Assembly (NCBI GenBank): GCA_025924315.1
Contig: JAICIO010000038.1
Location: forward strand, 1 to 50,154
Origin: Phycisphaerae bacterium
GTDB taxonomy: Bacteria > Planctomycetota > Phycisphaerae > Tepidisphaerales > Tepidisphaeraceae
Reading direction: 5' to 3'
DNA: 50,154 bases
Each line of letters opens with the position of its first letter. Position 1 is the stretch's first letter. Shown piece after piece: positions 4,120 to 23,719 of the stretch. Below the pieces are notes generated by a model, which saw nothing but the letters and a program-made list of their open reading frames with translations, was not told where the DNA came from and made no database searches. A program made the position numbers and the translations under genes.

Positions 4120-6285
4120 TCATTTTGCAAACGTCGGTTCCTTCGCGACGTTTTCGAACCTGGTCCACTGGCGCTGGCGGGTTCGCAGGACGATGTGATC
4201 GAGTTCGCTCATCCCGATCGGAATTTGTGTCGCCATGATTCCGTTTCCACTCGGGCGCCCGATTGATTGGGCGTATCCGTTGTCGGCGGGCTCTTCGTTT
4301 CCTTTCTTGTCGACTCCGGCGACGCCGAATTGCAGATCCGGCAAATCGGTGAAATCGCCGATCACGACGGTCCTTCCGGGAAAACTTCCCGATCGTTCCG
4401 TGAAGCGCTTCACTTCCCTCAGCTTGAAAGTCCCGCCGGCGATTGCCTTCGTCTCGCCTTGTTTGATCGTGCCGACATCCTTCCACTCTCCACCGGCGAT
4501 GCCGAATTCGACCGTGAGCGGTCCGCTCGATTTGGTGATCTCACTCGACATCGTGTTGCGCATTCCTTCGAACTGCTTTTCCTTCGTGGAGCCGGATTTC
4601 GGCAATGTAAACTCGACGACAGCGAGCATCTCCGGCGGACGCTGTTCTGGCGGCAGCGCGCGAACCCATCCTTCCTGCGTCTTGAGCGGAGTCCCTTCGG
4701 GATCCCAGAACCGATACGTCATCTCGCCGAATTTTCCGATCGCGACGAGTCGAGCTTTGGCGCCGTTGGGCAATTCATGCGTCCAACGCTCGATCACTTC
4801 CGGCGACGATGTGCCGGCGCCGCGGTTCCAATCCGCGACGTCTTTCGCGACGCGTAGTGCGCCTTCGAGGCCGATGTCCACCCACTGCGGCACATCGACG
4901 ATCTTTCTCACCCACGCCGCGTCGTCGTTCGCTACCTGCACAGCTTGAAAGATGAGTAAATGTCGGACCTCGCCTTTGCTCGGCGTTCCGCCGACGTTCG
5001 CGATCAGCAGTACGCAATCGCCGTGATGTAGGTCTGTTCCGAAACTGAAATTCGCGTTGACGGATTGACTCAAGTACACGGTGAGGCTGCCGTCGAATTG
5101 GAGGTGCGCCATCTCTTTGTTCTGCAGCAGTGAATAGAACCCGCCGCAGGAGCCGGAGAACTCCATCGGTGCGCGCCGCCCATCCGGCGACGCACCTTCA
5201 AGTGTGATGATGCCGCTGGTCGAGACGCTGTGCGTCTTTCCATCCTCCAGCCAGTTCAATGACTTGATCAGGCCGGGAAATGTGTGTTCCTTGCGCGCCG
5301 CGACGATCAGGTTCATCACTTTTTCCGACGGACACAGCAGCAGAGGGATTTCGGATTTCGCCCCCGGGATCGCTTTGCCGCTCGCGACGATTGCATCGGC
5401 GGTGTCCTTCTGCACGAGCGCTTCCCACATGCAGACGAGCACCGGCCCATCCGGCGCCGCCGCGGCGTCGGGCCATTGCGCGGATTGAGTCGTGCTCGCT
5501 TGGTTGGGTTTCGAGACTGCACCGTGTACGAGCATCACGAGCGCTGGCGTGAACACGATTGCAAGCATGACAAGCGCGACGAGTTTGAGTTTGGCGTAGA
5601 TCATCATATTCATGGCTCCGGAAGCGATTTGGGTTGCCGCCGCGGACGCGGTGCCCGCGGCGCTGGAGACCGATTGGACCAGTTGCGCCGGCGCCTTCTC
5701 GGCGATCGCGGCGCTCAGGCCGCTCGCGATCGCCAGCGCGCCGATTTCTTTCACGCCGCGCCGCGCGAGCGCCTTGCGAAGTTTCTCGACCGCGCGGGCG
5801 ACGCGTTTCTTCGCGGCTTCTTCGGAGACGCCCGTCGCGGCCGCGATCTCGCTCATGCTCTGATCGCGATAGAAGCGGAGCACGATCGCCTCGCGATCGC
5901 GCTTGCTGAGGCGCGCGACCGCTTCATCAAGCTGTGGCGTGACTTCGCGCCACTCCATCGACTCGAGCTCGATCGATTCCGTCCGCTCCATCGCCGCGTG
6001 TCGTTCGTGATACCGCCGTCGCGCGTCCATCTTCTTTGCGTCCATCGCGCAGTACCGTGTCGTGCGAAAGAGCCAGCCGGAAAGCGAGGTGCTTTGCGAA
6101 ATGCTCGCGGCTTTCCGCGCGAGCACCACGAACACCGCCTGCGTCACATTGCTTGCCAGATGCGCATCGTGCACCTGCCTTTTTGCGGCGGCGTAGATCC
6201 AATCCACGTGCCGCTGCGCAAGCGACTTAAACGCGTCGTGCGAGCCTTCGCGGACGTACTGCTGAAGAAGCTGCCAATCGGTCAT
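4120..6285 (-). CDS. ECF-type sigma factor fused to a membrane segment and large C-terminal domain
   Basis: A 721-residue protein. The first 165 residues or so are an ECF sigma-70 factor: region 2 around DAFKSLAQRHVDWIYAAAKR and NVTQAVFVVLARKA, and region 4 with LSKRDREAIVLRFYRD followed by the helix-turn-helix MSEIAAATGVSEEAAKKRV. An Ala-rich linker leads to one strong membrane helix near residues 232-255 (LKLVALVMLAIVFTPALVML). About 460 residues then follow with beta-rich composition and no family I recognise. This places the sigma domain in the cytoplasm and the tail on the outer side. ECF factors with C-terminal extensions are known in planctomycetes and related phyla. No anti-sigma gene is adjacent, so the tail may be the sensor. 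Confidence 0.85.
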   Translation of the reverse strand: MTDWQLLQQYVREGSHDAFKSLAQRHVDWIYAAAKRQVHDAHLASNVTQAVFVVLARKAASISQSTSLSGWLFRTTRYCAMDAKKMDARRRYHERHAAMERTESIELESMEWREVTPQLDEAVARLSKRDREAIVLRFYRDQSMSEIAAATGVSEEAAKKRVARAVEKLRKALARRGVKEIGALAIASGLSAAIAEKAPAQLVQSVSSAAGTASAAATQIASGAMNMMIYAKLKLVALVMLAIVFTPALVMLVHGAVSKPNQASTTQSAQWPDAAAAPDGPVLVCMWEALVQKDTADAIVASGKAIPGAKSEIPLLLCPSEKVMNLIVAARKEHTFPGLIKSLNWLEDGKTHSVSTSGIITLEGASPDGRRAPMEFSGSCGGFYSLLQNKEMAHLQFDGSLTVYLSQSVNANFSFGTDLHHGDCVLLIANVGGTPSKGEVRHLLIFQAVQVANDDAAWVRKIVDVPQWVDIGLEGALRVAKDVADWNRGAGTSSPEVIERWTHELPNGAKARLVAIGKFGEMTYRFWDPEGTPLKTQEGWVRALPPEQRPPEMLAVVEFTLPKSGSTKEKQFEGMRNTMSSEITKSSGPLTVEFGIAGGEWKDVGTIKQGETKAIAGGTFKLREVKRFTERSGSFPGRTVVIGDFTDLPDLQFGVAGVDKKGNEEPADNGYAQSIGRPSGNGIMATQIPIGMSELDHIVLRTRQRQWTRFENVAKEPTFAK

Positions 6286-16811: not shown

Positions 16812-16819
16812 GTTAAATT

Positions 16820-16895
16820 GTAGGGTCCGCTTCAGCGGACCGGTTATTTGCTTTTTCGAACGGACCAATAACCGGTCCGCTGAAGCGGACCCTAC
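16820..16895. repeat. REPIN-like inverted repeat, family A, copy 3
   Basis: Arms GTAGGGTCCGCTTCAGCGGA... and reverse complement, with a 17-base variable centre. It occupies almost the whole 88-base gap between the aroA stop and the phosphatase start, both on the minus strand. Confidence 0.9.
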
Positions 16896-16899
16896 AAGA

Positions 16900-18210
16900 T
16901 TACGGAGCTCTCAGTCTTTCGAGATCCAGAAAGAAATTCGGATAGGTCTTGTTGGTGCACTCGATGTCGTTGATCGTCACGCCCGCGGCGCGAGTCCCCG
17001 CGATGGCGAAGCTCATCGCCATGCGGTGATCGTCATACGTCGCGATCGATGCCGGCGTGATCTTCGCCGGCGGATGAATCACGAGATCGTCGCCGTGGAT
17101 TTCGACCTGCGCGCCGAGCTTTTTCAGCTCGTTCGATAGTGCAGCCACGCGATCGGTTTCCTTCACCCGCAAACTATGTAGACCACGGATGGCCGTCTCG
17201 CCTTTTGCGAAGAGGGCGACAACCGCGAGCGTCTGGGCGGTGTCGGGCATCGCGAGCAGATCGATGTCGATGCCGTTCAGCTCATCCGTGCCCGTGACCG
17301 TGATGAAGTCCTTGCCGAAGACGATGTCCGCCCCCATCTGATGCAGCACATCCGCGAAACCAACGTCGCCTTGCAGGCTGCGCTTGCCAAGGCCTTCGAT
17401 CATGACCTTCGCGCCGGGCCGAATCGCCGCCGCGGCTAAGAAGTAGCTCGCGTTGCTCGCGTCGGGTTCGACCGCATAGCTCGTCGCGTGATAGTTGTGC
17501 TGCGGGATGATGATCTGTTTCGGCTCGTGCGTTTCCGGATCGCGAATGAGTTCTGGTGTGACGCCGAAATGATCCATCAGCTGCATCGTCATCGCGACGT
17601 ACGGCCAGCTGGTTTGCTGACCGATGAGATCGACCCGCACCTCGTGCCGCGCGTGCGGCGCGACTTGCAGGATAGCGGAGAGATACTGACTTGAGACTTC
17701 GCTGCCGTAGCTCATCACTCCGCCGGGCAGACGATCCGCGTGAATCGCGACGGGCGGATAGCCCTCACTCCCGCGATAGGTTGCGCGAGCGCCGAGCTGG
17801 CGGAGCATTTTGATGAGCGACTCGATCGGCCGCTGGCGCATGCGCTCGTTGCCGTCGAGCGTGTAATCCCCTTGGCCGAGGGCGCAGAGTGCGGTGAGAA
17901 ATCGAATCGTCGTGCCGGAATTCTTGCAATACAGGTCCGCGGAGGCGTTAGGAATTTCTCCGCCGCGACCACGCACCCGAACTGTCGCCTTTGACTCATC
18001 AATTTCGAGTTGGAATCCAAGCTTCGAAAGGCCGTCGAGCATCGCGCGCGTGTCGTCAGCGAAGAGAACGTTCGTCAGCTCGCAGACCCCATCCGCCAGC
18101 GCCGCCAGGACGAGCGCGCGATTGGTCAAGCTCTTCGACCCCGGCGGGGCGAGCGTGGCCGAAAAAGGTTTCGCAAATGGCTCGATCGTCAGATCACTCA
18201 TGTCGAACAT
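16900..18210 (-). CDS. aroA: 3-phosphoshikimate 1-carboxyvinyltransferase (EPSP synthase)
   Basis: A 436-residue enzyme of the shikimate pathway that joins phosphoenolpyruvate to shikimate-3-phosphate. Family motifs are all visible: PPGSKSLTNRALVLAALADG near residue 22, the NSGTTIRFLTAL loop near 96, ERMRQRPI near 121, MPDTAQTLAVVALFA near 318, RVKETDRVAALSNEL near 346 and TYDDHRMAMSFAIAG near 388. Length is normal. Starts at 18210 (MFDM) and 18201 (MSDL) are both possible, and neither has a strong ribosome-binding site. It is divergent from the gbsR-like gene, with a REPIN-like repeat between. Confidence 0.95.
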   Translation of the reverse strand: MFDMSDLTIEPFAKPFSATLAPPGSKSLTNRALVLAALADGVCELTNVLFADDTRAMLDGLSKLGFQLEIDESKATVRVRGRGGEIPNASADLYCKNSGTTIRFLTALCALGQGDYTLDGNERMRQRPIESLIKMLRQLGARATYRGSEGYPPVAIHADRLPGGVMSYGSEVSSQYLSAILQVAPHARHEVRVDLIGQQTSWPYVAMTMQLMDHFGVTPELIRDPETHEPKQIIIPQHNYHATSYAVEPDASNASYFLAAAAIRPGAKVMIEGLGKRSLQGDVGFADVLHQMGADIVFGKDFITVTGTDELNGIDIDLLAMPDTAQTLAVVALFAKGETAIRGLHSLRVKETDRVAALSNELKKLGAQVEIHGDDLVIHPPAKITPASIATYDDHRMAMSFAIAGTRAAGVTINDIECTNKTYPNFFLDLERLRAP

Positions 18211-18281
18211 GAGAGTACGGGTGACGCGAAAGAACGCAACTCGTGCATGTCGCGGTCCTAAATCGGTCGTCTTACCGTCAA

Positions 18282-18358
18282 GTAGGGTCCGCTTCAGCGG
18301 ACCGGTTGTTCGTTTTTTGGAGAGGCAGAAATAACCGGTCCGCTAAAGCGGACCCTAC
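18282..18358. repeat. REPIN-like inverted repeat, family A, copy 4
   Basis: Same arms as the other copies, with small changes (GGTTGTT on the left arm, CCGCTAAAGCGG on the right) that weaken pairing. It lies in the divergent gap between aroA and the promoter of the gbsR-like gene. Confidence 0.9.
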
Positions 18359-18401
18359 AAGATCGCGGAATGCCTGACTTACGATTCATGAGAATTTTCA
18401 C

Positions 18402-18430
18402 TTGACTGGCCTCCGCCGATACAGTATGTT
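18402..18430 (+). promoter_or_regulatory. Sigma-70-type promoter of the gbsR-like operon
   Basis: TTGACT (18402-18407) and TATGTT (18425-18430) are separated by 17 bases, close to consensus. The palindromic operator begins on the last two bases of the -10 box, so a bound repressor would block RNA polymerase. The start codon is 30 bases downstream. Confidence 0.65.
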
Positions 18431-18451
18431 CTGTTAAGACAGAAATAACGG
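18429..18451. promoter_or_regulatory. Operator palindrome O1 (putative GbsR-type binding site)
   Basis: TTCTGTTAAGACAGAA (18429-18444) is an inverted repeat with six-base arms and a four-base centre. It is followed by ATAACGG, which mirrors the internal CTGTTA. Almost the same sequence recurs at 19012-19034, at the start of the next gene. Position over the -10 box and start site suggests autorepression. Confidence 0.65.
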
Positions 18452-18459
18452 AATCAACT

Positions 18460-18987
18460 ATGGATCTCTCACCGGTCACTCAGAAGTTCATCCTCCACTG
18501 GGGCGAGATGGGAACGCGCTGGGGGATCAACCGCACCGTCGCGCAGATCCACGCGCTGCTCTATCTTTCCCCGCGGCCGCTGCATGCGGAGGAGATCGCC
18601 GAAACGCTCGGCGTGGCGCGCTCGAATGTCAGCAACAGCCTCAAGGAATTGCAGCAGTGGCAGATCGTTCGCATGGCGCACGTGATGGGCGATCGTCGCG
18701 ATCATTTCGAGTCGATGAAGGATGTGTGGGAGATGTTCCGCATCGTGCTCGATGAGCGCAAGCGCCGCGAAACGGATCCGACGCTCAATCTGCTGCGAGA
18801 ATGCGTCGCGGAGATGGACAAGAGCGGCGACAAGGACGCCTACGTCAAAGCGAGGTTGAACGATATGCTGAGTTTTTTCGAGCTGATGACCCAGTGGTAC
18901 GAAAAGACTCGGCGGATCCCGACGCCCGCAGTCGTGCGGCTGGTGAAGATGGGCGACAAGGTGCTGAAAATGCTCGGCCTGATCTGA
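18460..18987 (+). CDS. GbsR/MarR-type winged-helix transcriptional regulator
   Basis: A 175-residue regulator. The N-terminal half is a winged helix with the GbsR-type signature: WGEMGTRWGINRTVAQIHAL (residues 11-30), then EEIAETLGVARSNVSNSLKEL as the helix-turn-helix (46-66), and MGDRRDHFES in the wing (79-88). The C-terminal half is helical and charged, suited to dimer formation. The ATG is the first start after the promoter and operator. It is the first gene of a seven-gene operon, and the two operator-like palindromes flank it, so it probably represses its own operon. The ligand cannot be read from sequence; GbsR relatives respond to choline or similar amphipathic solutes in other bacteria. 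Confidence 0.9.
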   Translation: MDLSPVTQKFILHWGEMGTRWGINRTVAQIHALLYLSPRPLHAEEIAETLGVARSNVSNSLKELQQWQIVRMAHVMGDRRDHFESMKDVWEMFRIVLDERKRRETDPTLNLLRECVAEMDKSGDKDAYVKARLNDMLSFFELMTQWYEKTRRIPTPAVVRLVKMGDKVLKMLGLI

Positions 18988-19011
18988 TTCGATTTTTATT
19001 TCGAAACGGAT

Positions 19012-19034
19012 TTCTGTTATGACAGAAATAACAG
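19012..19034. promoter_or_regulatory. Operator palindrome O2 overlapping the DCC-MBOAT start codon
   Basis: TTCTGTTATGACAGAA (19012-19027) differs from O1 by one base in the four-base centre. It is followed by ATAACAG, giving an additional CTGTTAT...ATAACAG pair. The ATG of the next gene (19019-19021) lies inside it. Binding here would block either an internal promoter or elongation. Confidence 0.6.
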
Positions 19035-20254
19035 ATAAAACGATCAGCGAAGCGCAAGGCGTGATCTTCTTCGACGCCACCTGCGGGCCTTGCACGACCG
19101 GAGCGCATCGGCTCGATCGCTTCCTCGGCCAGCGCGGATACGTGTTCCTGCCGCTCCAGGATCCGTGCGCCACGAGGCTCACGCATCTCTCGCCCGATGA
19201 ACTTCGCCGTGAAATGAAGCTGCGACTCGCCGACGGTCGCATCCTTGGCGGGGTCGATGCATTTCTCCATCTCGGTCGAAGCCTGTGCTGGATTCGTCCA
19301 TTCGCGTGGATCGCCGCTGCGCCGGGTGTCCGATTGATTCTTGATCACGCGTACGCGCGCTTCGCTCGCAATCGCTCACGTCTGCCCGCCTCCTGCAGTG
19401 TGAATCGCCGCGATCGATTCGCATCGCTCCGCTGGCTGATCCCATTGGCACTACTCGTCACCATCTGCGCGATTCGGCCGCTTGTCGCGCCGTGGGTCGC
19501 CATGTGGATGATCGCCGGCGCAATCTTCGCCTCGCTGAAACTGTGGACGTGGTGGCCGCTGCGAGCGCAGGCGACGACAGGGGGGTCTTTCGCTTACTTC
19601 TTGGCTTGCGCCACGCTGGATGCGAAACGGTTCCTCTTCGGTTCGCCAACAGAGAAATCATCAGCCATCCGGGCGATCGGACATGTCTTGATCGGCGCGA
19701 TCTCGCTGTTCGCAAGCACGCGCCTTGTTCCGACCAGTCATCCACTGCTCGTCGGTTGGGTCGGCATGATCGGCGTCGTCCTCATGCTCCATTTCGGGCT
19801 GTTGGAGTTGCTCGCGATCGCCTGGCGGCGCGCAGGCGTCGATGCGCCGCTCGTGATGAACAAGCCGCTCTCATTCGTCTCTCTTTCCGATTTCTGGAGC
19901 CGATGGAATCGGCCGTTCACCACCTTCGCGTTCGATACCATCTTCCGCCCGCTGCGCCGGTTCAGCGTGACGCTCGCCACGCTCGCGACGTTTCTCTTCT
20001 CTGGCCTGATCCACGACCTCGCGATCTCCGTCCCGACTGGCGCCGGCTTCGGCCGACCGACGCTCTATTTCCTCATCCAAGGCATCGCGATCCTCGTCGA
20101 ACGAAAAATGCGCTTCTCACGGAATCGCCGGCGCCTCTTCGCGGTGGTCGTGCTGGTCGCGCCGGTGTCGCTGCTCTTCCATCCGCCGTTCATTCACAAC
20201 GTGATTCTTCCCATGTTGAGCGCGATCCACGCGCTCGGAAAGGAGCTGCCATGA
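19019..20254 (+). CDS. DCC-type thioredoxin-fold / MBOAT (wax-synthase-like) fusion protein
   Basis: A 411-residue protein. Residues 14-120 match the DCC (DUF393) family: IFFDATCGPC with Cys22 and Cys25 as a CxxC pair, and ADGRILGGVDAFLHL. From about 138 there are seven or eight membrane helices. The core SLSDFWSRWNRPF...FRPL near residues 285-310, followed by FLFSGLIHDLAIS with His332, matches the membrane-bound O-acyltransferase / plant-type wax-synthase group, where that histidine is catalytic. It may transfer an acyl chain to a lipid hydroxyl. There is a 31-base gap from the regulator and an ATGA overlap with the next gene. The two domains are usually separate proteins. The ATG lies in operator O2. 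Confidence 0.85.
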   Translation: MTEITDKTISEAQGVIFFDATCGPCTTGAHRLDRFLGQRGYVFLPLQDPCATRLTHLSPDELRREMKLRLADGRILGGVDAFLHLGRSLCWIRPFAWIAAAPGVRLILDHAYARFARNRSRLPASCSVNRRDRFASLRWLIPLALLVTICAIRPLVAPWVAMWMIAGAIFASLKLWTWWPLRAQATTGGSFAYFLACATLDAKRFLFGSPTEKSSAIRAIGHVLIGAISLFASTRLVPTSHPLLVGWVGMIGVVLMLHFGLLELLAIAWRRAGVDAPLVMNKPLSFVSLSDFWSRWNRPFTTFAFDTIFRPLRRFSVTLATLATFLFSGLIHDLAISVPTGAGFGRPTLYFLIQGIAILVERKMRFSRNRRRLFAVVVLVAPVSLLFHPPFIHNVILPMLSAIHALGKELP

Positions 20255-20667
20255 ACCCCCTCGCACGCATGATCCAACTCGCCGGCATCCTCCAATTCGG
20301 CATCCTCATCGCCAGTTCTCTTGTCCCCTGCGTCCTGAACTGGCGCGACGAGCTGCGCAAGCTCTCCCCGATGACGCGTCACTTGGTGTGGGTGCACGGC
20401 GTTTTCATCGTGATCACCATCGTTGCCCTTGCGGCGCTGTCGGTGATCAATGCAAACGCTCTCGCGACGGGTGCGCTGCTCGCGCGATCGCTGTGCGCGT
20501 TCATCGCCATCTTCTGGGGCGCGCGGCTGGTGCTGCAGTTTGCGCTCTTCGATCCGAAGCCGTATCTCACGAACCTCGTGCTGAAGCTCGGCTATCACGC
20601 GCTGACCGTGATCTTCGCCTTCCTCGCGTTGACCTTCGGATACGCCGCCATTCATGCGGCGATGTGA
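20251..20667 (+). CDS. Four-helix membrane protein, paralogue a
   Basis: A 138-residue protein with four membrane helices at about 8-27, 45-68, 73-97 and 108-132. I do not recognise a named family. It is clearly related to the last gene of the operon (22609-23031): both have WRDEL/WAEEL..LS near residue 32, a VHGVFIV/VHAAFIV second helix, ARSL/SRAL, FWGARL/FWIVRL and a Q...D after the third helix. The ATG overlaps the preceding stop (ATGA), and AAAGGAGCTGCC precedes it as a ribosome-binding site. Location in the operon suggests a membrane partner of the acyltransferase. Confidence 0.8.
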   Translation: MNPLARMIQLAGILQFGILIASSLVPCVLNWRDELRKLSPMTRHLVWVHGVFIVITIVALAALSVINANALATGALLARSLCAFIAIFWGARLVLQFALFDPKPYLTNLVLKLGYHALTVIFAFLALTFGYAAIHAAM

Positions 20668-20673
20668 GCAGTC

Positions 20674-21093
20674 ATGACTATCGCGCTCGATACTCAGGTT
20701 CGTTCGCATGATCGACTCGGGCAAATACTCCGCGCGATCGTCGCGGCGGTGTGGCTCTATCACGGGCTCGTCAACAAGCTGCTGCACGCAAGCCCGCGGC
20801 ATCTGGAAATTGTGCGGTCTGTTCCGATCTTCGACGACACCACCGCGCCGATCGCGCTCGCCATCATCGGCGGCGGCGAAGTGATGATCGCGCTTTGGAT
20901 CGTCAGCGGCCGAGCTCCTCGTGCATGCGCCGCAATTCAGACCGCGGCGCTTATCCCGATGAACATCGTCGAGCTCATCTGGGCGCGCTCGCACCTTCTG
21001 TCGCCGGTTGCACTGATCCCCGTGAACATCGCGTTTCTTTCTCTGGCATGGATCGCCGCGATCACGAGAGGTGACACATGCTCTACACGCTGA
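20674..21093 (+). CDS. DoxX-like membrane protein
   Basis: A 139-residue protein with four membrane helices at about 18-34, 58-82, 87-104 and 110-131. VWLYHGLVNKLLH near residue 26 and the GGGEVMIALWIVSGR helix match the DoxX-like group, whose members often accompany redox or lipid enzymes without a defined reaction. It begins six bases after the previous stop and overlaps the next gene by 16 bases, so it is translated with the operon. Confidence 0.8.
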   Translation: MTIALDTQVRSHDRLGQILRAIVAAVWLYHGLVNKLLHASPRHLEIVRSVPIFDDTTAPIALAIIGGGEVMIALWIVSGRAPRACAAIQTAALIPMNIVELIWARSHLLSPVALIPVNIAFLSLAWIAAITRGDTCSTR

Positions 21094-21839
21094 AACGACA
21101 TCCCGTGCCGATGGAAGCAACGCTTCGCGATTGCCTCGTGCTGACGTACGCGCTGCCGCGAGAAACGCTCGAGCCGCTGCTCCCGCCGGGGTTATCGCTC
21201 GATTGCTTCGGCGATTTCGGTTTTCTCGCCATCGCCGTCGTGCAGGCGGATCATCTCAGGCCGGCGTTTCTTCCGCCCGCCTGCGGGCGATCGTTCGTAC
21301 TCGCCGGCTATCGCATCTTCACGAAGTTCCGCACGCCGCAAGGCCGAACGCTCCGCGGATTGTTCATCCTGCGCAGCGACACCGACGACCGCCGAATGGT
21401 GACGTTCGGCAACCTGCTCACGCATTACCACTATCACCTGTGCGCTGCGTCCTTCGCGAGGAGCGCGAAGGATCTGCAAATCAACATCACCACGCCCGAC
21501 GGCTTTGGTGATTTGTTCGTTCGCGCGAATCTGCGAACCGAAGGCTTTCTGCCGGTCCATTCGCCGTTCAAAACCGCCCGCGACGCGAGGCGCTTCGCGG
21601 GGCCGCTTCCATACACGTTCGACTACGAGCCGCAGACGAACTCGATCGTCGTGATCAAGGGCGTTCGGCCAAACTGGAATCCAACCCTTGTCGCCCCGGA
21701 GGTCTCGCGCTGCACGTTTTTCGACCGCGAACCCTTCCGCGGCGCCCGTCCCATGCTCGCCAGCGCGTTTTATGTGCACGACATTCCGTATCGCTGGGAG
21801 CGCGGCCGACGGTTTTCATTGAAGGAGGTTTCACCATGA
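21078..21839 (+). CDS. DUF2071 (YqjF-like) family protein
   Basis: A 253-residue soluble protein. The DUF2071 fold is suggested by LTYALPRETLEPLLPPGLSL near residue 22, the LAGYRIFTKFRTPQGRTLRGLFIL strand region near 75-99, and the GPLPYTFDYEPQTNSIVVIKG block near 173. The family resembles acetoacetate decarboxylase-like beta-barrels, but its activity is not known. The ATG follows GAGGTGACAC and lies inside the end of the DoxX-like gene; its own stop overlaps the next ATG (ATGA). It is the only member of the operon after the regulator without a membrane segment. Confidence 0.85.
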   Translation: MLYTLKRHPVPMEATLRDCLVLTYALPRETLEPLLPPGLSLDCFGDFGFLAIAVVQADHLRPAFLPPACGRSFVLAGYRIFTKFRTPQGRTLRGLFILRSDTDDRRMVTFGNLLTHYHYHLCAASFARSAKDLQINITTPDGFGDLFVRANLRTEGFLPVHSPFKTARDARRFAGPLPYTFDYEPQTNSIVVIKGVRPNWNPTLVAPEVSRCTFFDREPFRGARPMLASAFYVHDIPYRWERGRRFSLKEVSP

Positions 21840-22612
21840 CTACGAGCACACTTCATCTTTCGACGGGTCGATATTCCGGCGTTGTCCGCATCATTCGCGT
21901 GAATTGGCCGCGTTACGCGCTCGCGGGAGCGATCGTCTTCATGACGGCGTGCGCGACGGATCTCGCGCTTCCGCGCGCGGTCAAGATCATGCTTTGGAGC
22001 GGCGCATCGCTGGGGCTCTTCTGGGTGATCGCGTCGATCATCGCATCCCACTGGGTGTACGACCGCTCGAATCTCTTCGAGTGGACTTGGTTGCGCGAGG
22101 CGATTGGCGAGCCCGTGACGCGGTGGATCAACATTCACGCGGGGCTGGATTCGGTCGGCCGCAAGACGCTTCGCAGGCTCTTTCCGGGCGCAAAAGGGAC
22201 AACGCTGGACATCTTCGATCCGATCGAAATGACCGAGCCGTCGATCGCCCGCGCCCGCGATGAAGAGGAGATCGATCCACGGACGGTGCATGCGCGATTT
22301 GATGACCTGCCGATTCCAAGTAGTGAAGCGGACGTCGCATTGCTGTTGCTCGCGGCGCATGAGCTTCGCCGGCCGGCGGCGCGCGACGCATTCTTCCGCG
22401 AGCTGCGCCGCGTGGTTTGTCCGGGGGGACGCGTCATTCTCGTCGAGCACGTGCGCGATCTGGCGAATTTCATCGCGTTTGGTCCTGGTGCGTTTCACTT
22501 CTTCCCTCGCCGCGCGTGGATGCGCAATGCAGCTGCCGGCGGATTCGAACTCGTGCGCGAAATGCGTTTCACGCCGCTGGTTCGGGCCTTCATTCTGCGG
22601 AGGGAATCATGA
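21836..22612 (+). CDS. Membrane-anchored methyltransferase-like protein
   Basis: A 258-residue protein. Two membrane helices (about 27-46 and 50-72) precede YDRSNLFEWTWL, then a Rossmann-like region of class I SAM-dependent methyltransferases. The segment TTLDIFD near residue 122, the DLPIPSSEADVALLLLAAHEL block near 155, and the ELRRVVCPGGRVILVEHVRD block near 185 correspond to later methyltransferase motifs. The glycine-rich motif I (GxGxG) is missing before the first strand, so SAM binding may be altered. AAGGAGG precedes the ATG and the stop overlaps the next ATG. A lipid or quinone-like substrate is plausible from the membrane anchor and operon. Confidence 0.75.
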   Translation: MTTSTLHLSTGRYSGVVRIIRVNWPRYALAGAIVFMTACATDLALPRAVKIMLWSGASLGLFWVIASIIASHWVYDRSNLFEWTWLREAIGEPVTRWINIHAGLDSVGRKTLRRLFPGAKGTTLDIFDPIEMTEPSIARARDEEEIDPRTVHARFDDLPIPSSEADVALLLLAAHELRRPAARDAFFRELRRVVCPGGRVILVEHVRDLANFIAFGPGAFHFFPRRAWMRNAAAGGFELVREMRFTPLVRAFILRRES

Positions 22613-23031
22613 TCGCGATCACACTGCTTCGTGTCGCGGGCGTTTTGCTGCTTCTGCTCGCGGCGGTGAATTTGTACGTGCCGAAGCGTTTCGCGTGGGC
22701 GGAGGAGCTGCCGCGATTGTCGCTGCTCAATCGGCAGATCTTCGTCGTGCATGCGGCATTTATCGTGCTGATGATTCTGCTGATGGCCGCCCTCACGCTT
22801 GCGCTGCCGGGCGATCTGATGGCGCCATCACGCTTGTCGCGCGCCTTGCTCGCAGGCATGGGCCTCTTCTGGATCGTGCGGCTGCTGGTTCAGTGGTTCG
22901 TGTACGACTCCCGCATCTGGCGCGGACACCGATTTTACACGGTGATGCATTACGTCTTCACCGCACTGTGGATCTACTTCAGTGCGACATTCGCGTTTGC
23001 CCTTTGGCAGAACGTGCGGATCGGATCGTGA
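22609..23031 (+). CDS. Four-helix membrane protein, paralogue b
   Basis: A 140-residue protein with four membrane helices (about 4-25, 46-66, 80-101 and 113-133). It is a paralogue of the product of 20251-20667, sharing WAEELPRLSLLNRQ, VHAAFIVL, LSRALLA, FWIVRLLVQW and a YD after the third helix. The ATG overlaps the previous stop, with GGAGGGAATC as ribosome-binding site. It closes the operon; a REPIN-like repeat follows in a convergent gap. Confidence 0.8.
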   Translation: MIAITLLRVAGVLLLLLAAVNLYVPKRFAWAEELPRLSLLNRQIFVVHAAFIVLMILLMAALTLALPGDLMAPSRLSRALLAGMGLFWIVRLLVQWFVYDSRIWRGHRFYTVMHYVFTALWIYFSATFAFALWQNVRIGS

Positions 23032-23061
23032 TGTGGATTCCGCCGAATTGCGCGAGCATGT

Positions 23062-23137
23062 GTAGGGTCCGCTTCAGCGGACCGGTTACTCGTTGTGCTC
23101 GGCGGAGGAATAACCGGTCCGCTGAAGCGGACCCTAC
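23062..23137. repeat. REPIN-like inverted repeat, family A, copy 5
   Basis: Arms identical in plan to the other family A copies. It lies in the convergent gap between the gbsR-type operon and the LuxR-type gene, so it could act as a bidirectional stop. Confidence 0.9.
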
Positions 23138-23169
23138 GAGATCGCATTCTCGGCATGCGAATCGGGCCG

Positions 23170-23535
23170 TCACGGTCTTGGAATGAATCGCGCGAGCAGT
23201 TCGCCACGACTGGAAACGCCGAAGCCTTTGTAGAGCGCTTTGACGTAGACGTGCACGGTGTTCTGGCTGATCGAGAGTTTGCGGGCGATTTGTTTTTCGC
23301 TTTCGCCCGCGAGCAGCGCGTCGAGCGTTTGCGACAGGCGCGGCGAAAGTGATTCAGTGGCGGTGGAGGAAGCTGGAGTTGCCGTCGGTTGTACCTGCTG
23401 CTGTCCAAGCATTCGGCACAGGTCAGCGACGAGTTGCCGTTTTTGATCGAGGGTGGATTGCAAACTGGGTTGCGCAGTTTGCGCCGCGCGCAGCAGGGCG
23501 CCGAAATTGTTCACGCAGTTTGAGCCGCCGTTCAT
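23170..23535 (-). CDS. Small LuxR-type helix-turn-helix regulator
   Basis: A 121-residue protein. The C-terminal 65 residues are a GerE/LuxR DNA-binding domain: LSPRLSQTLDALLAGESEKQ, then the helix-turn-helix around QIARKLSISQNTVHVYVKAL and a closing KGFGVSSRGELLAR. The N-terminal part is short, with no receiver or ligand-binding domain, so it may act as a DNA-binding unit alone. The ATG at 23535 was preferred; a longer GTG start at 23583 lacks a ribosome-binding site. It lies next to the PEP-CTERM gene on the same strand and could regulate it. Confidence 0.8.
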   Translation of the reverse strand: MNGGSNCVNNFGALLRAAQTAQPSLQSTLDQKRQLVADLCRMLGQQQVQPTATPASSTATESLSPRLSQTLDALLAGESEKQIARKLSISQNTVHVYVKALYKGFGVSSRGELLARFIPRP

Positions 23536-23719
23536 GATTACCCCGCACGAACGATTGGTGCTCGTCGCCGCGCAACGACTCACTTAGAGCAATTGCAGCG
23601 GATGCGATGAGGCGAGTATATCGCTCGCTCGCCGCCTATGCCATTCAGTGTGAATTTGTGATGCGAACGCTTGTGAGCGCGCGAGTAGCTCCCCGGGCGC
23701 ATGAATTGCGCGATCACCT

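Follow-up and report, generated by a model that had tools for sequence, protein, structure and literature searches.

A putative self-repressed lipid O-acylation operon in a planctomycete, built from a GbsR-regulated acyltransferase core and a tailoring cassette

The binding site of GbsR in Bacillus subtilis is an inverted repeat, gapped by 4 bp, that lies downstream of the point where transcription begins, and a roadblock to transcription has been proposed (PMC7396694). The locus described here resembles the B. subtilis GbsR and OpuAR circuits (PMC7396694, PMC6207618) in its GbsR-family regulator, in an inverted repeat whose half-sites are separated by 4 bp and in an operator downstream of the promoter, an arrangement consistent with a roadblock. 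Its central enzyme resembles the MBOAT proteins of the DGAT1, ACAT and wax-synthase type, with which it shares the fold (Z up to 18.8), the catalytic histidine and the FW.RWN motif. Both are found in one operon of the window, by which we mean the whole stretch of 50,154 nucleotides that was analysed (Phycisphaerae bacterium, contig JAICIO010000038.1). The features are as follows.

18402..18430, plus strand: gbsR promoter (TTGACT, 17 nt, TATGTT), from a pattern search in which about one such match is expected by chance in the region
18429..18444, no strand: op1, palindrome TTCTGTTAAGACAGAA over the -10, candidate repressor operator; at most two mismatches in 23/23 loci
18460..18987, plus strand: GbsR-type MarR regulator, 175 aa (Pfam MarR_2, E 4e-9)
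18993..18997, plus strand: T-run after gbsR (TTTTT), candidate pause or U-tract; 6-8 T in most relatives
19012..19027, no strand: op2, palindrome TTCTGTTATGACAGAA enclosing the DCC-MBOAT start codon, candidate roadblock operator
19019..20254, plus strand: DCC-MBOAT fusion, 411 aa, with CGPC as its CxxC and invariant W293, W296, N297 and H332 (Pfam DCC1-like, PF04134, E 3e-16; MBOAT, PF03062, E 1e-8)
20251..20667, plus strand: 4TM-a, four-helix membrane family without a name, likely MBOAT partner (no Pfam match)
20674..21093, plus strand: DoxX_3 protein, cassette B (Pfam, E 4e-14)
21078..21839, plus strand: DUF2071 protein, ADC-like fold family, cassette B (Pfam, E 3e-11)
21836..22612, plus strand: methyltransferase-like (MT) protein with a hydrophobic N-terminus and an atypical motif I, cassette B (Pfam Methyltransf_11, E 4e-8)
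22609..23031, plus strand: 4TM-b, paralogue of 4TM-a, cassette B (no Pfam match)

All seven plus-strand genes of the original prediction are present and tightly packed; in gene order the junctions are 31 nt, an ATGA overlap, a 6-nt gap, a 16-nt overlap and two further ATGA overlaps. The six families assigned to them are borne out by Pfam matches, apart from the two small four-helix proteins, which are paralogues as anticipated (26% identity between 4TM-a and 4TM-b). The tight packing agrees with a single translation-coupled unit, but this view has to be amended at the first gene: gbsR is probably punctuated from the downstream genes rather than simply coupled to them, because a T-run and an operator behind it are conserved in relatives. 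The operon is two modules joined, core A (GbsR, DCC-MBOAT, 4TM) and cassette B, each of which recurs elsewhere. The expected co-occurrence across Planctomycetota is found for the core, whereas the six families are not one travelling unit: one module comprises GbsR, MBOAT and 4TM, often with DCC, and the other, made of DoxX_3, DUF2071, MT and 4TM-b, is also found without MBOAT or GbsR. Among the loci examined, the full seven-gene set occurs in the window only. No described system with this gene set was found in the literature searched, as had been stated, nor anything relevant on combinations of DUF2071/DoxX/DCC/MBOAT or YndJ/MBOAT. The operon is flanked by REP-like hairpins at window positions 16818-16900, 18281-18362 and 23061-23142, in each of which some 20 nt separate TAGGGTCCGCTTCAGCGGACCGGTTATT from its complement; the genome has about 670 half-sites. 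Directly behind it, on the opposite strand, a short LuxR-type (GerE) helix-turn-helix protein is encoded at 23170-23583 (minus strand).

The best solved relative of the regulator is Mj223 (1KU9; E 7e-17 over positions 9-138, winged helix and dimerization region), whose structure has served as the template for GbsR models (PMC6207618). The regulator matches NCBIfam CudC with E 1e-12, yet far below the family cut-off. In the GbsR loci, gbsR is flanked by paired, near-identical palindromes of the form TTCTGT-N4-ACAGAA, with half-sites 4 bp apart. The first of these, op1, overlaps the -10 of the gbsR promoter, and in 15 of the 23 loci op1 is preceded, at a spacer of 16-18, by a -35 that departs from TTGACA at no more than one position; op2 is within two mismatches of the palindrome in 19 of the 23, weaker in L040, L041 and L046, and reads N in L042. 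The two are the sole exact operator sites in the 6.6 Mb genome to which the window belongs. A wider regulon was rejected, there being no further exact sites and no more one-mismatch sites than background (6, against 5 for the control), and so was a second promoter at op2, where there is no consistent -35 or -10. In clade L063-L069 both sites have become GTCAGT-N4-ACTGAC and the recognition helix has changed from VARSNVS to ISHGN(A/T/V)S; this switch is a single evolutionary event, though one that changed the two operators and the regulator alike. The conserved predicted operators lend weight to the idea that a GbsR-type repressor controls the operon. Glycine betaine or Opu transport genes are absent among the listed neighbours of the loci. 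We propose that the candidate operators at gbsR, which are new here, serve GbsR-family regulators of a branch outside osmostress, for which operators and a testable circuit can now be put forward. Both operators are also retained in L081 (oriented positions 5531 and 6136), a GbsR-DCC-4TM-YndJ locus without an MBOAT match, and a perfect TTCTGTATATACAGAA site lies just upstream of the 4TM-b gene in L083 (position 6930), a locus in which no GbsR was detected.

At least five T precede op2 in 20 of the 23 loci. The space between the end of the run and op2 is 10-12 nt in 17 loci, and exactly 10 nt in 12 of them; this spacing is constrained even though op2 lies anywhere from 17 to 111 nt behind the gbsR stop codon. 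Of the 23 loci, 16 have a run of six or more T near op2, against 6 of 380 other gene ends (p ~1e-18); the window's own run is short, with 5 T at 14 nt from op2. RNA polymerase reaches roughly 15-20 bp past the 3' end of its RNA at the front edge, so that with op2 occupied it would come to a halt near the T-run. Strong hairpins (z about -2 or lower) stand ahead of the T-run in only some 5 of 19 loci, so we offer termination as a hypothesis only; a plain roadblock is enough. Taken together, the two palindromes, the T-run and the helix covariation are consistent with autorepression plus a roadblock.

What would such a circuit control? The predicted model of the DCC-MBOAT protein (pLDDT 91) matches human DGAT1 best (rmsd 3.9 over 262 residues at the top Z score), followed by plant DGAT1, ACAT and DltB. 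The four invariant residues are the same in all of 43 sequences; they include the catalytic Asn and His (N297, H332), and H332 aligns with the histidine replaced in a plant DGAT1 entry titled H447A mutant. The DGAT1 fold and the kept catalytic residues argue for the predicted MBOAT O-acyltransferase, which would sit in the membrane and probably links fatty acids to a lipid. Its gene is single copy in its own genome, and a search for the MBOAT in plasmids gave no match. In one relative (G015; L027, L028) the MBOAT lacks the DCC part, and a DCC protein is encoded by itself on another contig.

The protein encoded next to it belongs to a family, 4TM, with no Pfam or NCBIfam match; none of 48 members was convincing against Pfam. 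4TM-a is confidently predicted (pLDDT 95) to fold into a bundle of four helices with no Foldseek match in the PDB, and the fold matches of 4TM are all below Z 9, which means little for helical bundles. A relationship to DoxX was rejected (hhalign probability 1.6%). We searched whole genomes with profiles, a single-protein scan of contigs having yielded three loci only, and called genes in relatives with a simple script. In 392 Planctomycetota genomes, an even draw that consists partly of fragmented metagenome assemblies, MBOAT is found in 52 (E <= 1e-10) and 4TM in 44, and both occur in 36 versus 5.8 expected (p ~1e-30). A 4TM gene lies on the same contig in 37 of 41 strong MBOAT matches, at gaps of 3-321 nt (mostly below 200 nt, and one of 786 nt), and at least one of the matches without it sits at a contig end. 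In most families MBOAT comes before 4TM, in others after it; DCC, MBOAT and 4TM are fused in one frame in L023, and DUF2071 replaces DCC in the fusion with MBOAT in L026. A search of 100 relatives added five loci with the GbsR-MBOAT-4TM core, and many MBOAT-4TM loci lack GbsR and DCC. On these patterns of gene adjacency we propose that 4TM, a membrane protein family without a name, is likely to partner a DGAT1-like acyltransferase of bacteria.

The neighbours around the core vary among loci: a TIGR01777 oxidoreductase stands beside it in L022, L024 and L025, YndJ and CPBP-type (Rce1-like) proteins follow 4TM-MBOAT in clade L063-L070, and L081 also carries a TIGR01777-type protein. A well conserved protein of about 120 aa without a name (3TM) is encoded directly behind 4TM in L025, L033, L035, L037, L040 and L042, with no Pfam or NCBIfam match in the members tested, and five loci of L063-L070 have a protein of about 200 aa with an EDSGEW motif in front.

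Cassette B recurs in the order DoxX_3, DUF2071, MT-like, 4TM-b in the planctomycete loci L074, L075 and L076 and in Streptomyces (L071). On the Streptomyces plasmid NZ_CP098484.1 it reads DoxX_3, BtaA-like, DUF2071, MT, 4TM, with DUF2071 54% and MT 39% identical to their counterparts in the window; two further Streptomyces plasmids carry ArsR, DUF2071, MT and 4TM. A DUF3419/BtaA search of the window's own genome gave no match. Since the cassette occurs without MBOAT or GbsR in L071-L077, it may serve an unrelated role. In the MT-like protein the glycine-rich SAM motif I is replaced by xxGxDE in nine members, with the acidic D125 kept, and eight cassette-B DUF2071 proteins have no invariant lysine that could be the Schiff-base lysine of ADC; the family is also reported to lack that lysine (PMC4520260). 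With SAM motif I and the invariant lysine absent, methylation and ADC-type chemistry are not to be assumed.

How might these parts work together? We lean towards an operon for lipid O-acylation that represses itself and to which a tailoring cassette has been added. A GbsR-type dimer on op1, over its own -10, would limit its own transcription, to judge from the sites, their spacing and the helix covariation; on op2 it would stop the polymerase ahead of the enzyme genes, and a small ligand would release it. The MBOAT would use His332 and Asn297 to transfer an acyl group, within the membrane, to a hydroxyl on a small lipid or on an alcohol that resembles one. Adjacency and the one fusion suggest that 4TM may act as its subunit, and the DCC CxxC domain may render the enzyme redox-responsive. 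DoxX_3, DUF2071, the MT-like protein and 4TM-b may act on that lipid or on a related one in the membrane, as suggested by operon membership and by the BtaA-like gene in Streptomyces, which belongs to a family with a betaine-lipid annotation. It is plausible that the product is an acylated lipid; the acylated, possibly methylated, lipid originally predicted is an inference. A fuller version, which we consider rather unlikely, has the same GbsR dimer shutting its own promoter and, when bound to op2 10-12 bp past the T-run behind its own gene, keeping the polymerase on the U-tract, where transcripts would end; once released by its ligand, it would permit readthrough into a redox-gated MBOAT-4TM complex making an undescribed lipid.

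Part of the evidence can be read differently. The CxxC kept in the DCC members shown in the alignment, the resemblance of DoxX_3 to MauE and DoxX in Pfam, the weak best NCBIfam matches of MT to UbiE/MenG and the sulfate response of the GbsR-family member CydE (PMC6207618) would suit a thiol/quinone redox-stress operon, in which DCC, DoxX_3 and a UbiE-like protein do membrane disulfide or quinone chemistry and the MBOAT merely modifies a quinone or isoprenoid alcohol. We regard this as rather unlikely, as many MBOAT-4TM loci lack DCC and DoxX and the invariant pair is acyltransferase plus 4TM. Rather unlikely, too, is a plain neutral-lipid synthase that makes storage wax esters or triacylglycerol as DGAT1 does: DGAT1 is the closest solved relative in fold and also in sequence (E 3e-7, over only about 91 residues), but identity over the aligned fold is only about 13%, and tight repression and thiol-redox and methyltransferase-like neighbours are atypical of storage.

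The same fold is shared at Z 13-15 by DltB, PORCN and HHAT, so that acylation of a protein or polysaccharide, as by PORCN, DltB and AlgI, has to be considered; DGAT1 and ACAT score higher, however, and carrier, export or polysaccharide genes are not recurrent nearby, which leaves this reading very improbable. That each module is also found alone might mean that the window holds two unrelated modules under a common promoter, without a joint pathway. We deem such juxtaposition distinctly unlikely: a 4TM paralogue is present in both modules, and DUF2071 of several types adjoins or is fused to MBOAT in L023, L026, L033, L035, L046 and L047. In L023, from the window's own family, an orthologous DUF2071 (50% identical) directly follows the core before the contig ends, so the joining of core and cassette is probably not unique to the window.

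The preferred reading, a self-repressed lipid O-acylation operon, combines known parts, and it flags specific genes for lipidomics of planctomycetes and Streptomyces. Compared with the B. subtilis GbsR and OpuAR circuits, there are no osmolyte genes nearby, the operator sequence is another one and the target is a lipid-enzyme operon; two operators surround the regulator's own gene, with a T-run ahead of the second. Unlike DGAT1, ACAT and wax synthases, the MBOAT type of the window is a bacterial protein of shorter length that in many cases is fused with DCC or DUF2071 and that is paired with 4TM. The planctomycete ornithine-lipid operon OlsH-OlsG-OlsI (PMC12493201) is likewise a small operon in which an O-acyltransferase and a methyltransferase act on a lipid, but its OlsI belongs to the alpha/beta hydrolases and its OlsH to GH3, and no gene families in common were seen. 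The Streptomyces plasmid cluster differs in its BtaA-like gene and in lacking GbsR, DCC and MBOAT, yet it shares four families with the window, in the same order.
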